Source: Streptomyces zaomyceticus (lineage in GTDB: Bacteria > Actinomycetota > Actinomycetes > Streptomycetales > Streptomycetaceae). From it: DNA of 64,000 nucleotides. Position 1 is the first letter of the stretch; every line of letters starts with the position of its first letter. A program made the position numbers and the translations under genes. Positions 39,279 through 46,471 of this stretch are shown piece by piece. The notes below the pieces were generated by a model. The model saw only the letters and a program-made list of their open reading frames with translations, was not told the DNA's origin and searched no databases. The DNA lies in assembly GCF_014656215.1 (NCBI RefSeq), contig NZ_BNBZ01000005.1, positions 186,001-250,000 on the forward strand, written 5' to 3'.

Positions 39279-40538
39279 ATGGCTGCTGCTCATCGAGCGA
39301 GACGTTGGTCCTTCGGTGGACTGGTGCTCGTCGTCACCGCCGGACTGGTGGTGGCGGTGTTCATGTCCTTCGTCGGTTCGGGCGCTTCGCGGGCCGGTGC
39401 CGCCGCGGTCGCCGCGCAGACCTGGTCCGACGAGTTCGACGGACCGGCGGGTCGCGGACCCGATTCCGCGAAGTGGACGCTGGAGACCGGTGGTTCGGGA
39501 TTCGGGAACCACGAGTTGCAGTACTACACCAACAGCACGTCGAACGCCGCGCTCGACGGTCAGGGCCACCTGGTCCTCACCGCGCGGAAGAACGGCGATG
39601 CCGGACTGCAGTGCTGGTACGGGCAGTGTCAGTACACATCGGCGCGGCTGAACACCGCCAAGACGTTCACGCAGACGTACGGACGTTTCGAGGCGCGGAT
39701 CAAGATCCCGCGGGGACAGGGGATTTGGCCCGCGTTCTGGATGCTGGGCAATGATCTCGGCACCGTCGGGTGGCCCAACAGCGGCGAGATCGACATCATG
39801 GAGAACATCGGACGCGAGCCCCATACGGTGCACGGAACCGTGCACGGACCGGGGTACTCGGGAGCGGGCGGCCTGGGGGCGTCGTACAACCTGCCCGGTG
39901 GACGGGCTTTCGCCGACGACTTCCATGTGTTCGCCGTGGACTGGAGCCCGAACTCGATCGTCTGGTCGGTGGACGGCACGACGTACAAGACGCTCACCCC
40001 GGCCGGCACCAACGGCAACAAGTGGGTCTTCGACCACCCGTTCTTCCTCATCCTCAACGTGGCGGTCGGCGGCGACTGGCCCGGTAGCCCCGATGCCTCC
40101 TCGGCCTTCCCGCAGACGATGGTCGTCGACTACGTACGTGCCTCCGGCAGCGCCACCGCCGCACGTCCGATCCGCGGCATCGGCGGAATGTGCGTCGACG
40201 TCGCGGGCGGTTCGAACGCCGACCGTACGCCGATCCAGCTGCACAACTGCACCGGGAACGCGGCCCAGCAGTGGACCATCGGCGGCGACGGCACCGTTCG
40301 CGCTCTCGGCAAGTGCCTCGATGTGGCGGGTGGTTCCACCGCGGATGGCGCCGTGGTCCAGCTCTACACCTGCAACGGCACCAACGCCCAGAAATGGACG
40401 TACACGGGCGCCCGCGACCTCACCAACATCGGCGCCGGCAAGTGCCTGGACGCCAAGGGCAACTCCTCGGCCGACGGAACCCGGCTGCAGACCTGGGCCT
40501 GCACCGGCGGCGCCAATCAGAAGTGGACGGTCGGCTGA
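39279..40538 (+). CDS. Secreted GH16 endo-beta-1,3-glucanase with CBM13 (ricin-type) domain
   Basis: 419 aa. Signal/anchor helix SFGGLVLVVTAGLVVAVFMSFVG (residues ~11-33). GH16 catalytic domain ~45-285: active site GEIDIMEN with nucleophile E170, D172 and acid/base E175; also WPAFWMLG and NHELQYYT. The C-terminal ~130 residues form a CBM13 beta-trefoil with three repeats ending QQW, QKW and QKW. It hydrolyses beta-1,3-glucan (laminarin, fungal wall). The GH64 glucanase follows 104 bp downstream. LacI-type boxes upstream suggest induction by glucan oligosaccharides. Confidence 0.94.
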   Translation: MAAAHRARRWSFGGLVLVVTAGLVVAVFMSFVGSGASRAGAAAVAAQTWSDEFDGPAGRGPDSAKWTLETGGSGFGNHELQYYTNSTSNAALDGQGHLVLTARKNGDAGLQCWYGQCQYTSARLNTAKTFTQTYGRFEARIKIPRGQGIWPAFWMLGNDLGTVGWPNSGEIDIMENIGREPHTVHGTVHGPGYSGAGGLGASYNLPGGRAFADDFHVFAVDWSPNSIVWSVDGTTYKTLTPAGTNGNKWVFDHPFFLILNVAVGGDWPGSPDASSAFPQTMVVDYVRASGSATAARPIRGIGGMCVDVAGGSNADRTPIQLHNCTGNAAQQWTIGGDGTVRALGKCLDVAGGSTADGAVVQLYTCNGTNAQKWTYTGARDLTNIGAGKCLDAKGNSSADGTRLQTWACTGGANQKWTVG

Positions 40539-40642
40539 TCGATGCACGGAGTCGGCAGCGCCCTGCCGCGGCTGATTCCCGACTCCGGCTCCGCCCCCGT
40601 ACCCGGCTCTCCCTCAACCCCTCGCAGAACGGACCCCCCACC

Positions 40643-42331
40643 GTGACGGCTCGCCACCAGCGAACGATGTCCCGCAGAAAACTCCTCACCGCGACCGCGG
40701 GCCTGGCCCTGGCGGTGCCCGCCGCGGCGACCTGGCTCGAGGTCGACGCCGACGCTTCGACCGCCCCGACGCTCCCTCTGGATCTGGTCAACACCACCGG
40801 CGGAAATACGGTGTACGCCTATGTGCTCGGCCGCGACCCGGCAGCCGGTGGCAACTGGGCCTTCATCCAGGCGGACGGCTCCAGCCTGCACCACCCGCCG
40901 TCCCCGGCCGCTGACCAGACCCCGCTCGGCGTCGACTGCGCGATCGCGCTCAACGCGTCCGGCGCCGGGGCGCGGAGGGTGACCCTGCCGCGGCTGTACA
41001 GCGGACGCATCTACTTCTCCGTCGGAGCGAAGCTCACCTTCCTGATGAACCGCGGCGGCGGCCTGGCCCTGCCCTCGGTGAGCAACCCGACCGACCCCAA
41101 CGTGAACGTCCACCACGACTTCTGCGAATTCACCTTCAACAGCGACCAGTTGTACGCCAACATCACGTTCGTCGACATGGTCTCGCTGCCGATCGCCTTC
41201 CAGCTGGAGACCGGACAGGGTCCCCAGACGGTGCGTGGACTGCCCGCCGACGGGCTGTCCCGGGTCGCCGCAGCACTCCGGGCCCAGTCCGCCGCCGACG
41301 GCAGCGACTGGAGCAGGCTGATCGTCACCAAGGGCGGCGCCGACCTGCGCGTAGTCAGCCCCAACCTGGCCATCCGGGGCGACAACGCCCTGTTCCGCGG
41401 TTACTTCGACAGCTACGTCGACGAGGTGTGGAACAAGTACCGCTCCACCGACCTGCGCATCGACACCCAGTTCACCTGGGGCACCGTCACCGGCCGCGTG
41501 AACGGCGACACGCTCACCTTCCCGGGAGTGGGCAGCTTCGCCAAGCCGTCCACCCTCTCCATCTTCTCCTGCAGCGACGCCCCCTTCACCACGGGCAACG
41601 ACCTCATGGGCAACCTCAGCGCACGACTCGCCGCCGCCTTCAACCGCACCACCCTGCTGGACAACCCCCACCAGCCGACCGCCGAGAACCCGGCCTCCTT
41701 CTACACCCGGCCGCGGACCAACCACTACGCCCGCATCCTGCACGACACCACCCCCGACCACCTCGGGTACGCCTTCCCCTACGACGACGTCCACCCGGCC
41801 GGAGTGGACTTCGAGGGCAAGGTCCAGTCCGGCAGCCCCGGCCGCTGGACCATCACCGTGGGGGGAACCACCGGCGGCGGGGGCGGTACGCCGACGCCGA
41901 CCGCCACCGCCACGAGCGGCGGGGTCAGCGCCTTCGCCACCATCCAGGCCGAGGCGTTCAGCTCCCAGACGGGAACCCAGGTGGAGGTCTGCTCCGACAC
42001 CGGCGGCGGTTCCGACGTCGGCTGGCTGTCCAACGGCGACTGGCTCAAGTACTCCTCCGTCGCCTTCGGCACCCGCGGCGCCACCCGCTTCACCGCCCGC
42101 GTCGCATCCGGCGCCGCCACGGGTGTCAGCGGCCTGGTCCAGGTCCGCCTCGGCAGCCCCACCGCCACCCCGATCGGCAGCTTCGCCGTCGCCGGCACCG
42201 GGGGCTGGCAGACCTGGCGCACCGTGCCCGCCGACATCAGCCCCACCACAGGCACCCACGACGTCTACCTGACCTTCACCAGCGGTCAGCCCGCCGACTT
42301 CGTCAACCTCAACTGGTTCACCTTCGCCTAG
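40643..42331 (+). CDS. Secreted GH64 beta-1,3-glucanase with CBM6 domain, Tat-type signal
   Basis: 562 aa from the GTG at 40643; the ATG at 40667 gives the core signal MSRRKLLTATAGLALAVPAAA, a twin-arginine type. GH64 (thaumatin-like) domain ~35-410: PLDLVNTTGGNTVYAYVLG, HHDFCEFTFN, ANITFVDMVSLPIAFQLE, CSDAPF and HYARILHDTTPDHLGYAFPYDDVHP. A Gly/Thr linker follows, then CBM6 (~430-562; IQAEAFSSQTGTQVE, DWLKYSSVAF, FVNLNWFTF). GH64 enzymes release laminaripentaose from beta-1,3-glucan, complementing the GH16 endoenzyme next door; likely one regulon. Confidence 0.94.
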   Translation: MTARHQRTMSRRKLLTATAGLALAVPAAATWLEVDADASTAPTLPLDLVNTTGGNTVYAYVLGRDPAAGGNWAFIQADGSSLHHPPSPAADQTPLGVDCAIALNASGAGARRVTLPRLYSGRIYFSVGAKLTFLMNRGGGLALPSVSNPTDPNVNVHHDFCEFTFNSDQLYANITFVDMVSLPIAFQLETGQGPQTVRGLPADGLSRVAAALRAQSAADGSDWSRLIVTKGGADLRVVSPNLAIRGDNALFRGYFDSYVDEVWNKYRSTDLRIDTQFTWGTVTGRVNGDTLTFPGVGSFAKPSTLSIFSCSDAPFTTGNDLMGNLSARLAAAFNRTTLLDNPHQPTAENPASFYTRPRTNHYARILHDTTPDHLGYAFPYDDVHPAGVDFEGKVQSGSPGRWTITVGGTTGGGGGTPTPTATATSGGVSAFATIQAEAFSSQTGTQVEVCSDTGGGSDVGWLSNGDWLKYSSVAFGTRGATRFTARVASGAATGVSGLVQVRLGSPTATPIGSFAVAGTGGWQTWRTVPADISPTTGTHDVYLTFTSGQPADFVNLNWFTFA

Positions 42332-42779
42332 GACGGCAACGGTGTTGCAGTGACGCTTGTTTGCTTTCGGGCAGGAGGTCACCGACGGCAGTGCGGATCG
42401 CGCCGCGGCCGACACGGTGGTCGCGGGCGAGGGCGGTGACGGAACGCCTTCCAGGTACGCGGTGCGCACGTCGCCGACCTCCGCGGCCGCCACGGCGAGG
42501 TGGCGTCCGCCGTTGCCGCCCTTGGCCGCGGCGTCGCGTTGTCCGTCGTGGCCGTGGGCGGCATCACCGCCAGGTGCACGAGGCTCCCCGCCGCTCGGCA
42601 GGGCTCCGCCTCGACCCTCCATCCATCGGTCTCGACCCGCTCGAGATCCGGCGCGAGGCCTGGCATGTCGCTTTCGGCCGTGGGGTCCGGCCTTCCGTGG
42701 TAAGAGTGGCTCAGGCCGTCGGGAACGATGTGGCATCTACGTCAGCGACCTCGGGGCCACAGGGCAGGGGAGCGCGGGG
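42332..42779. other. 448-bp region without a recognised gene
   Basis: Open frames exist on both strands (for example 42379-42666 -, containing VETDGWRVEAEPCRAAGSLVHLAV), but none has a start and length I can support. The minus-strand stretch could be the remnant of a gene. The kinase promoter must lie here. Confidence 0.4.
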
Positions 42780-44426
42780 GTGGCATTGTTCGAGGACCTG
42801 AAGCCGGAGGATCCGCGGCGGGTCGGGCGATACCGTCTCGTCGCACGGCTTGGCGCGGGTGGCATGGGCCGCGTGTATCTGGCGCGTTCGCCGGGTGGCC
42901 GCCCGGTCGCGGTGAAGGTGGTTCGCCCGGAGCTGGCCGAAGACAGCGAGTTCCGGCGCCGCTTCGCCCGTGAGGTGACCGCCGCCCGCAGGGTGAACGG
43001 GGCTTTCACCGCCGGTGTGGTGGACGCCGATCCGGAGGGCTTCCCGGCCTGGCTGGCCACCGTCTACGTCCCCGGCGTCTCCCTGGGGGAGGCGATCACC
43101 GAGCACGGCCCCTGGCCCGCCCGCCCCGTCCTCGCCCTGGGCGCCGGGCTGGCTGAGGCGCTGGAGGCGATTCATGCCGTCGGCGTCGTCCACCGCGACC
43201 TCAAACCCTCCAACATCCTCCTGGCCGCCGACGGCCCGAGAGTGATCGACTTCGGCATCTCGATCGCGAGCGGGGCCGGCGCGCTGACCCGCACCGGTAC
43301 GACCATCGGCACTCCCGGCTTCATGTCCCCCGAACAGCTCACCGGCCGGCCGGTCGGACCCGCCGGCGACGTCTTCGCCCTCGGTGCGGTGCTTGCCTAC
43401 ATCGGCACCGGCACCGGACCGTTCGGCACCGGCACCCCTGACGTTTTGCACTACCGAGCCGTCCACGAACCCCCCGACATCACCTCCCTGTCGTCGGAGC
43501 TGCGCGAGGTGGTGGCCGCCTGCCTGGCCAAGGATCCCGACCGGCGCCCCTCCGTCGCCCAACTCCTCGACCGGCTCGCCTCCGCGGCCGGATCCGGCAG
43601 TGGCGCGGACACGGCCACAGTCGAGCTGCTGGCCGAACCCGGCTGGATGCCCGACCGGATCGCCCAGCTGGTCCAGGCACAGACCGCCGGCGACCTGCCC
43701 GACACCCCGTCGGGCGAACCGTCCGGCCCCACAACGCCCACCGACACGCCACCCGCCCCCGGGCCGCACCGGACACCGTCCCGGACCGCGGAACAGCACC
43801 AGCCCGTCACCCTTGCCCTGCGGCAGCCCGAACCCACCGGGCCCGCCCCGGCGACAGGGCCGCCGGTCGTCATGCCACCGCCGGGAGACGCTCCCGAACC
43901 GGGGCGCCGCCCTGATGCCCGGCGCCGTACCGTGCTCGGCCTGGCAGGCACCGCCCTCACCGCGGGAGCCGGCCTCACCGGGTGGAAGATGCTCACCGAC
44001 GACACCGCGGACTCCGGCGCCGGGCCTTCGAAGTCGCCCAGCGAGTCCCCCTCACCGAACTCCACCGGTTCCTCGGAAGCCGGCAGCGCCGGCAGCGGAG
44101 ATTCCAGCGGTTCGAGTGGCGACAAGGACGCGGGCTCGGGCGCTGAGCTCGCGAAGACCACCGACATCCCGGAGGGCGGAGGCAAGGTCTTCAAGAGCGA
44201 GGGCGTGGTGGTCACCCAGCCCGAGGAGGGCACGTTCAAGGCGTTCACGGCCGTGTGCACCCACCAGGGCTGTGCCGTGACGAGCATCGTCAACGGCGTC
44301 ATCATGTGCCCCTGCCACGGCAGCAAGTTCTCGATCGCCGACGGCAGCGTGCAGAGCGGACCGGCGACGCAGGCGCTGCCCGAGAAGCGGATCTCGGTGG
44401 ACGGCGACGCGATCACACTGGCCTGA
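42780..44426 (+). CDS. Hanks-type Ser/Thr protein kinase fused to an extracytoplasmic Rieske [2Fe-2S] domain
   Basis: 548 aa; the GTG at 42780 has AGGGGAG 8 bases upstream. Kinase domain ~17-280: GAGGMGRVY loop, VAVKVV (K46), HRDLKPSN (D140), DFG 157-159, GTPGFMSPEQ. A Pro/Thr linker (~300-375) leads to RRRTVLGLAGTALTAGAGLTG (~381-401), a single helix with a twin-arginine motif. A Ser/Gly linker and a C-terminal Rieske domain follow: CTHQGC (C493, H495, C498) and CPCHGS (C510, C512, H513). All four cluster ligands and both disulfide Cys are present. Streptomyces has free-standing Tat-exported Rieske proteins with this end; here one takes the place of PASTA sensors. A redox-sensing kinase is inferred. 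Confidence 0.9.
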   Translation: MALFEDLKPEDPRRVGRYRLVARLGAGGMGRVYLARSPGGRPVAVKVVRPELAEDSEFRRRFAREVTAARRVNGAFTAGVVDADPEGFPAWLATVYVPGVSLGEAITEHGPWPARPVLALGAGLAEALEAIHAVGVVHRDLKPSNILLAADGPRVIDFGISIASGAGALTRTGTTIGTPGFMSPEQLTGRPVGPAGDVFALGAVLAYIGTGTGPFGTGTPDVLHYRAVHEPPDITSLSSELREVVAACLAKDPDRRPSVAQLLDRLASAAGSGSGADTATVELLAEPGWMPDRIAQLVQAQTAGDLPDTPSGEPSGPTTPTDTPPAPGPHRTPSRTAEQHQPVTLALRQPEPTGPAPATGPPVVMPPPGDAPEPGRRPDARRRTVLGLAGTALTAGAGLTGWKMLTDDTADSGAGPSKSPSESPSPNSTGSSEAGSAGSGDSSGSSGDKDAGSGAELAKTTDIPEGGGKVFKSEGVVVTQPEEGTFKAFTAVCTHQGCAVTSIVNGVIMCPCHGSKFSIADGSVQSGPATQALPEKRISVDGDAITLA

Positions 44427-44479: not shown

Positions 44480-45745
44480 CTACCGGGCGTCACGCCGTCG
44501 TCGTCGCGCGCGCTCGAACTCGGCGACGTCGGACATCCAGGGACCGTGCTGTGCGAGTGCGGCGTAGCCACCGCGGACGAAGGCACTCACCAGGTTCCGG
44601 TACCCGGCGATCCCGTCGACCAGGCTGTACTCGACCCGGTACTCCGGATCCGACCTGCCATCGCCCTCGCGCAGCGTCATGATCCGGGCGATGGAGTCCG
44701 TGTAGAAGTGGAGCTGGATCCCTTCGCCCCTCTTCTCGTCCTCGATGGTGAACACTTCGTTGTCCCCGGCGGAGCGATCGCCGACGAACTCCCAGAACTC
44801 CGCGGCGGCGGTGCGGGGACCGTCCTGCAGCCACTTCTTCTCGACGCCCTTGTCGTCGGTGAACGTCAGGGCTGTCTTCCTCGCACTCCTGTCGAAGTCG
44901 GCGCCGTGGCCGGCGGCCTCCTCGTCGTCCTCCATGGGTGTGCTCCTGGAGCGGGCCGCGGCCTCCGAGCACATGAGGAAGCTCACGGTACGCACCGCGT
45001 CATCGACGAGCTCCGGGTGTGCACGGCGCACGGCCGCTCCGACCGCCGTCTCCATCCGAGCCCAGTCGTGCTTGTCCGTGGCGCGGTTTCCCCGTCGCGG
45101 ATCGCGGCCGATCCGCATTCCGGCGCACGCCCGCTCCGCGGTGCCGATCACCCGCGTGACCGCGGGCAGCAGTGAGGGGTCGACGGCATCGGGGATCCGC
45201 TTCGGCACCGTCGCTCCGTGCAGATACTGGCCCGTGTATCTCAGAATCGCGGCGTCGAGTGGACCGAGTACCGCTCCGCGCTCGGCGCGACGGCGGTCCG
45301 CGTGGTGCTCCTGAGCCCGCTTCTCGTTCGGCGTCTCCGTCGCCGTGCGCATCGCCGCGTACACCTGACCGCGTTCGAGCAGACCGCTGTCGGCGCCGTG
45401 GGCGATGAGCCGGCTCCTGTCCCACGGGATGCGCCGGAAGATCGTGTCGACGTCTGCGGGCGCGGCGAGGAGGATCGGATCCAGGAGCGCGACGGCACCG
45501 TTCTCGTCGAGCCGGCCACGGGTTCCGGCGGCGTCGCACAGCGGAAGGACCGCACTCCACAGCAGCAGGTGTCTGGCCAGGTCCTCCTGGATCACCCCGA
45601 GATGGGCTTCGCTGATCGAGAACGTGAACGTGCGAGGCTCGTGGTTGGCGTCCGCCCCGGCACCGAGCAACAGCTTCAGCTCGCCGTCCTCGCTGACGAC
45701 GCTGGGGATCCAGCCGCTGTTGCGTGTGAAAACGATGTCTCTCAT
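44480..45745 (-). CDS. Hypothetical protein
   Basis: 421 aa from the ATG at 45745 (MRDIVFTRNSGWIPSVVSEDGELKLLLG); GGGAAAG lies 10 bases upstream. Soluble, no signal or membrane helix. N-terminal beta-rich part, long charged helical middle (TETPNEKRAQEHHADRRRAERG) and a C-terminal beta/alpha part (EYRVEYSLVDGIAGYRNLVSAFVRGGYAAL). I cannot name the family with confidence. Next gene upstream on the same strand is 72 bp away; the pair may be an operon. Confidence 0.7.
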   Translation of the reverse strand: MRDIVFTRNSGWIPSVVSEDGELKLLLGAGADANHEPRTFTFSISEAHLGVIQEDLARHLLLWSAVLPLCDAAGTRGRLDENGAVALLDPILLAAPADVDTIFRRIPWDRSRLIAHGADSGLLERGQVYAAMRTATETPNEKRAQEHHADRRRAERGAVLGPLDAAILRYTGQYLHGATVPKRIPDAVDPSLLPAVTRVIGTAERACAGMRIGRDPRRGNRATDKHDWARMETAVGAAVRRAHPELVDDAVRTVSFLMCSEAAARSRSTPMEDDEEAAGHGADFDRSARKTALTFTDDKGVEKKWLQDGPRTAAAEFWEFVGDRSAGDNEVFTIEDEKRGEGIQLHFYTDSIARIMTLREGDGRSDPEYRVEYSLVDGIAGYRNLVSAFVRGGYAALAQHGPWMSDVAEFERARRRRRDAR

Positions 45746-45817
45746 GGAATCAGTCTTTCCCGGGGCGGCACCGGCCGGCATCACGGCGATGCTGCAGCCC
45801 CGCCTCGCACCGTCCGT

Positions 45818-46471
45818 TCACGACCACCGTGCACATTCGACGTCGAGGCGTGGGTCGGTGCGCACCCAGACTTCGCCCCCGGCGGCCCCGGCCGGGGCCT
45901 CGACCCGTTCGATACCGAGGAACTCGATCAACTTGAGCAGTGCGGCTCGTTCGGCTCGGTCGTCGTCGACGCCGTGCGAGTCGAAGAAGACGTAGTACTG
46001 GTCGCTCGGGTCCACGTAGCCGGAATCGGCCCAGATCCGGGCGACCTCTTCGATCGCGGCCGCTTCCGTCGTGATCGCGGCGGCGCGGGCGGCACCACGA
46101 GTCTCCGGCGACGCGTCGAGATCGGCGAGGTCGGAGAACCACTGGCCGAAGCGGTCCAGGCCGGCGTATCCGTTCTCGAAGAACAGCATCGCGCTCGGAA
46201 GGTAGCGATTGCCCCTGTCGACCTGGAGGTATTCGGAGCGAGGCTGGTCCGTATCCCTGATCCGGGAGATCACACCCTGCTCCGGCATGAGGACCAGACT
46301 CTGCCCCGACGGTTCATCAGTGATGACGTAGGTGTCGGACTCCCGACCACGGAAGAACGCGGAGAACGCCACGTAGGCCTCCTGAGGGTCGCCCACGGAG
46401 ACCTGCTGGTCGTTGCCGTCCCCGACAGCGAAGACGAACTGCTTCGGTCCGGGGTTGTAGGGGCGAGCCAT
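45818..46471 (-). CDS. Hypothetical protein
   Basis: 217 aa; the ATG at 46471 follows AAGGACGCAT. Soluble, acidic. Segments QFVFAVGDGNDQQVSVGDPQEAYVAFSAFF and YLPSAMLFFENGYAGLDRFGQWFSDLADL. Family unrecognised. The three genes at 44480-47478 share strand and spacing; the set recalls contact-toxin or immunity neighbourhoods, but no toxin domain is seen. Confidence 0.7.
   Translation of the reverse strand: MARPYNPGPKQFVFAVGDGNDQQVSVGDPQEAYVAFSAFFRGRESDTYVITDEPSGQSLVLMPEQGVISRIRDTDQPRSEYLQVDRGNRYLPSAMLFFENGYAGLDRFGQWFSDLADLDASPETRGAARAAAITTEAAAIEEVARIWADSGYVDPSDQYYVFFDSHGVDDDRAERAALLKLIEFLGIERVEAPAGAAGGEVWVRTDPRLDVECARWS

Follow-up and report, generated by a model that had tools for sequence, protein, structure and literature searches.

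One gene in the window – the whole 64,000-nucleotide stretch that was analysed, on contig 5 of an 8.3 Mb draft genome of Streptomyces type – encodes a Hanks-type Ser/Thr kinase fused to a Rieske domain. The domain order is kinase, proline-rich linker, one weak membrane segment and Rieske domain; the kinase chassis is of a known type, and the combination of domains is new. The architecture, the cluster ligands, the homologies of both parts, the weak twin-arginine anchor and the exchanged sensor are plain, and redox sensing by the predicted protein is plausible. The reading proposed here, given about an even chance of being correct, is an AfsK-like receptor Ser/Thr kinase in which a Tat-exported Rieske redox domain replaces the PQQ propeller.

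The open frame spans 42357–44426, and the coding part makes up 548 codons of it (Table 1). The GTG start at 42780 matches the starts of homologues (VGAFETLEPEDP.. / MEALKPTDPRQVGRY). GC3 lies between 0.80 and 0.97 in this frame, across both junctions, and there are no stops. Other Streptomyces proteins show clear homology to the kinase part and, separately, to the Rieske part, so the frame is not open by mere chance. A sequence-only reading of the region had described one uninterrupted frame joining the two domains; this holds, with continuous GC3, no stops and both Pfam domains above their cut-offs, and the residues it named (K46, D140, D157-F158-G159, C493, H495, C498, C510, C512 and H513) are each at the position claimed.

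Table 1. Features of the kinase-Rieske gene (positions in the window)
Feature	Position	Strand	Notes
Purine-rich ribosome-binding-like sequence GGGGAG, 5' of GTG	42765..42779	+	sequence
Kinase-Rieske fusion gene	42780..44426	+	548 aa, GTG start, apparently monocistronic
Hanks-type Ser/Thr kinase domain, residues 18-264	42831..43571	+	PF00069 E 1.2e-38; catalytic motifs complete
Post-kinase tail LLAEPGWMPDRIAQLVQ	43626..43679	+	motif also in L001, L045, L046, L047
Pro-rich linker, predicted cytoplasmic	43686..43919	+	sequence
Twin-arginine weak anchor RRRTVLGLAGTALTAGAGLTGW, residues 381-402	43920..43985	+	Tat-signal-like, lipobox Cys absent
Ser/Gly-rich linker, predicted extracytoplasmic, as in free Rieske lipoproteins	43986..44141	+	sequence
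Rieske [2Fe-2S] domain (cluster predicted)	44142..44423	+	PF00355; ligands C493 H495 C510 H513, disulphide C498-C512

The gene begins about 450 bases 3' of a GH64 glucanase gene, and its 3' neighbour is a DUF6357 gene on the opposite strand, in convergent orientation. No operon partner was found at the locus, and no gene for a redox partner or substrate lies beside the kinase-Rieske gene (the neighbours are GH16, GH64 and DUF6357). The two upstream genes are of the secreted beta-1,3-glucanase type (39324–42331, forward strand), one with GH16 and a ricin-type lectin domain and the other with GH64 and CBM6. The N-terminus of the GH64 protein, MSRRKLLTATAGLALAV, is also Tat-like. DUF6357 occurs in two adjacent genes on the reverse strand (44480–46471), full-length in 44480–45745 and as a partial, weak match in 45818–46471, which suggests a duplicated gene.

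The fusion was taken as real, and a misassembly is unlikely, since the genome has no second copy of the Rieske part that could have been its source – other Rieske loci in the genome are at most 50–53% identical to the fused part among the matches listed. The sequence-only reading had allowed that an error might have joined two genes. The assembly is a draft in 80 contigs, which leaves some room for this, but the locus is internal to its contig, the junction is in frame with a continuous coding signal, and the anchor runs into the Rieske part unbroken, with no interruption of the frame in the anchor or in the linkers on either side of it. An artefact of this kind is considered extremely improbable.

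The kinase part scores 133 bits against the Pkinase model (cut-off 31.7) and has the lysine, HRD and DFG residues (K46, D140, D157); by domain score and catalytic residues it is predicted to be a Hanks-type Ser/Thr kinase. The closest solved structures are those of PknB (E 1e-41). Matches to defence kinases from PADLOC were only generic matches to the kinase domain and were set aside. In a tree of 75 kinase domains, the fusion falls in a firmly supported clade of seven (starred in the tree) together with G024/L013, G013/L014, L045, L046, L047 and L001. G024/L013 and G013/L014 are chromosomal, and L045–L047 are from plasmids. G024/L013 has a kinase, a twin-arginine (RR) anchor and a PQQ beta-propeller; L045–L047 have a kinase and a PQQ beta-propeller without any membrane segment, and would therefore be soluble; and G013/L014 has several membrane segments. 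The contig of L001, from Streptomyces sp. ERV7, ends just past the kinase, and a free Rieske gene lies elsewhere in that genome. Two further plasmid relatives differ again at the C-terminus – L198 has a propeller and an ordinary hydrophobic membrane helix, and L199 a C-terminal domain of no assigned family. L045 and L046 have a recombinase or transposase gene nearby, on Streptomyces plasmids. The clade relative in S. oryzae (L002, 5992–6929) is a frameshifted, broken gene that ends at an integrase-like sequence.

These comparisons point to an AfsK-like chassis with an exchangeable C-terminal module, in which the PQQ propeller has here been replaced by a Rieske domain. A sensor swap is indicated because the other members of the clade mostly carry PQQ propellers and the Rieske part is similar to free Tat lipoproteins. 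The earlier reading drew a comparison with PASTA kinases; AfsK-like kinases with PQQ propellers are the nearer relatives.

The Rieske domain matches its Pfam model over residues 458–534 (E 8e-13, 48.5 bits, cut-off 20.3), and all six of its cysteines and histidines are invariant in 43 aligned relatives; the ligands and disulphide cysteines noted in the earlier reading are thus confirmed as intact by position, Pfam match and alignment. An AlphaFold model has a pLDDT of 94.9 and a pTM of 0.86, and its best PDB matches by Foldseek are soluble Rieske proteins. By its CxH..C / CxCH ligands, Pfam score and modelled fold this is a Rieske domain, and the cluster itself is predicted. F517 takes the place of the Tyr that is usual at this position, which predicts a redox potential lower than in bc1 Rieske proteins. 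Its nearest relatives are free Streptomyces Rieske lipoproteins with a Tat signal and lipobox (RRAVVAAAGAAGLSVALTACG), at most 74% identical over 97 residues among the matches listed. In the Rieske tree the fused domain also lies among free lipoproteins, though its placement is not firm. The genome matches support the earlier view that in Streptomyces such Rieske proteins otherwise occur as free Tat lipoproteins or as QcrA. Among the relatives found, the fused domain is at least 26% divergent from its nearest kin with all invariant positions kept; retention of the six cysteines and histidines despite this divergence argues against decay.

The earlier reading described a single helix between the two domains. 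One membrane segment is present, but it is not an ordinary helix: the best 19-residue Kyte-Doolittle mean of the anchor (RRRTVLGL..GW) is 1.1, against 1.49 for the third transmembrane segment (TMD3) of QcrA in the same genome, and it is led by RRR in the manner of a Tat signal. Tat signals were called by a simple rule, an RR pair immediately followed by a weak segment without charges, and the fusion anchor conforms to this rule for an internal Tat signal. It is read as a Tat signal and not as an ordinary membrane helix because it is unusually weak and led by RRR. An Fe-S domain with its cluster cannot pass Sec unfolded. As an Fe-S domain folded inside the cell needs Tat for its exit, the segment is most naturally read as an internal Tat signal, and a route outside the membrane, assumed in the earlier reading, is thus predicted for the Rieske domain. 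For actinobacterial Rieske proteins it is reported that a weakly hydrophobic TMD3 favours release from Sec, so that the segment can be inserted by Tat (PMC5449189). The lipobox cysteine is replaced in the fusion (LTGW), so signal peptidase II should spare the link between kinase and anchor.

The origin of the anchor was also considered. The anchor may derive from a free Rieske lipoprotein, with the lipobox cysteine changed to tryptophan (LTGW, codon TGG); an origin on the kinase side is at least as likely, because the related propeller kinase L013 has an RR..GW anchor. The RR anchor is not found across the clade – L045–L047 have no segment, and the plasmid relative L198 has an ordinary hydrophobic one.

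Similar anchors are found in other kinases. A set of 137 kinases was drawn from the source genome, relatives and plasmids, and 107 of these had a detectable anchor. Many of the 137 have RR-type anchors such as SRRRFLTGAAVGVAVLGTGGG, NPGRRRMLAGIAGAVAVAASGGGAW and SRRRLLVLGAAGAVAGTGGLTAW, and those RR-anchor kinases that were checked have a PQQ propeller or Peripla_BP_6 domain attached. Of the 107, 64 have an RR immediately ahead of the anchor, and the anchor is weak (hydropathy below 1.85) in 27 of them, against 2 of the 43 that lack the RR (Fisher P 1e-5). When similar kinases were thinned out, the counts were 17 of 39 and 2 of 28 (P 0.001). The association of RR with weak anchors in kinases is suggestive only, because the cut-off of 1.85 was chosen post hoc with the data seen, the L013 anchor was a manual addition, the kinases are related in sequence, and positive residues are common ahead of membrane helices.

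In Streptomycetales, many kinases, among them L076 (1700–6096, anchor SRRRFL), L075, L139, L174 and L195, have their PQQ propeller or Peripla_BP_6 sensor joined to the kinase domain through a Tat-like RR and a weak segment rich in Ala and Gly. The anchor of L174 weakly matches the Pfam 'Fe-S subunit TAT signal' model of the bc1 complex (E 6e-4, below cut-off). A wider proposal is made tentatively, at somewhat less than an even chance: a class of Streptomycetales receptor kinases may rely on an internal Tat signal, placed after the cytoplasmic kinase domain, to export their outer sensors (propeller, periplasmic-binding-type or Rieske), and the present protein, with a [2Fe-2S] input, would be the first case of a receptor kinase that senses through a Tat-exported metal cluster. 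A limited search of the open-licence literature found no reports of a kinase-Rieske protein or of a kinase with a Tat signal.

Tat insertion, cluster incorporation, redox input and coupling to kinase activity are the steps that we infer for the fusion. The kinase domain would remain in the cytoplasm, and the Rieske domain would fold and acquire its [2Fe-2S] cluster there. The Tat translocase would recognise the internal RR segment and move the folded Rieske domain across, and the segment would stay as an uncleaved membrane anchor, the lipobox cysteine being absent. Once outside, the cluster could exchange electrons with quinol, with small oxidants or with a redox partner protein, and its state, or docking to that partner, may alter how the kinase molecules cluster in the membrane and, through this, their autophosphorylation and output. 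The two linkers, of about 80 (Pro-rich) and 50 (Ser/Gly-rich) residues, are of low complexity and flexible. Linkers so long and flexible are unlikely to transmit movement rigidly from the cluster to the kinase, and redox-dependent clustering or partner docking is more likely than direct mechanical coupling.

The fusion is known from one genome so far, within the sampled genomes and plasmids. The searches covered about 90 further Streptomyces genomes, a sample of the genus, together with some 60 genomes of other actinobacteria. They gave no second fusion among 60 relatives with the whole protein as query, among the matches listed, down to about E 3e-29, for the Rieske query in 150 genomes (91 Streptomyces including the source, with long frames re-examined for a kinase), in 90 genomes with the kinase end and Rieske part as query, in 72,556 plasmid records, or in viral contigs and genome contigs. 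The check proposed in the earlier reading, a search for conservation as one protein, thus gave no further case in the Streptomyces, other actinobacterial and plasmid sequences covered. Kinase and Rieske domain are separate in every other genome examined, so no conservation backs a selected function. Separate homologues elsewhere, which the earlier reading had named as evidence against itself, lower the functional claim; they do not make the fusion an error.

This distribution bears on a recent accidental fusion in one strain, in which the kinase works as before or is inactive and the Rieske domain is carried along as a passenger, with no function under selection. Restriction to one genome among those searched is what this would predict, and the clade swaps its sensor modules freely (propeller, polytopic, other) and includes the broken S. 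oryzae gene. However, the Rieske part has diverged from all the relatives found yet retains the invariant positions, and the frame is open with intact codon bias; both points argue against a passenger, and an accident is judged unlikely. The Rieske domain could instead be a docking or localisation module that keeps the kinase close to a redox complex, respiratory or of another kind, outside the membrane, with kinase activity governed otherwise. Rieske proteins do function through docking to partners, and long flexible linkers flank the Rieske domain and anchor here. On the other hand, we know of no docking partner for the free Streptomyces Rieske lipoproteins, and the cluster ligands are all kept although docking alone would not require them; this explanation is also judged improbable. 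The gene might also give two products, a full-length kinase and a separate Tat-Rieske protein made from the internal ATG at 43872 (MPPPGDAPEPGRRPDARRRTVLG..) or by proteolysis. This ATG is in frame, 16 codons ahead of the RRR, and would give a normal-looking Tat signal peptide, but it has no clear ribosome-binding sequence, and a short product lacking the lipobox cysteine would be processed differently from the free proteins. Two products are considered very unlikely.

The best-known bacterial receptor kinases sense cell-wall fragments or other ligands. If the reading of an AfsK-like kinase with an exported Rieske domain is true, the redox state outside the membrane would be linked directly to Ser/Thr phosphorylation, and an internal, uncleaved Tat signal would tether a cytoplasmic enzyme to a Tat-exported domain; other AfsK-like kinases with such anchors would do likewise. 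The layout of a one-span receptor kinase is shared with PknB and other PASTA kinases, but the fusion has no PASTA domains (194 bits against the NF033483 cut-off of 450) and its anchor is weak and RR-led. With the free Tat Rieske lipoproteins it has in common the ALAKTxDIPEGGGK start and the Ser/Gly linker. Those proteins are small and have a lipobox (..LTACG), whereas the fusion has LTGW, is presumably uncleaved and has a kinase in front. QcrA (Sco2149) is an actinobacterial membrane Rieske protein that uses both Sec and Tat (PMC5449189); like the fusion as predicted, it has its Rieske domain outside and an internal RR ahead of a weakly hydrophobic last segment, but it crosses the membrane three times and is a subunit of the bc1 complex, while the fusion has one weak segment and scores 45 bits against the QcrA equivalog cut-off of 275. 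The closest comparison on the kinase side is AfsK of Streptomyces coelicolor, which has C-terminal PQQ/beta-propeller repeats (PMC1262709). The AfsK model NF053615 aligns to residues 5–431 of the fusion, over the kinase domain and the region after it (E 1e-90), but the score of 305 bits falls well short of the equivalog cut-off of 1300, and the fusion has a Rieske domain and no propeller.
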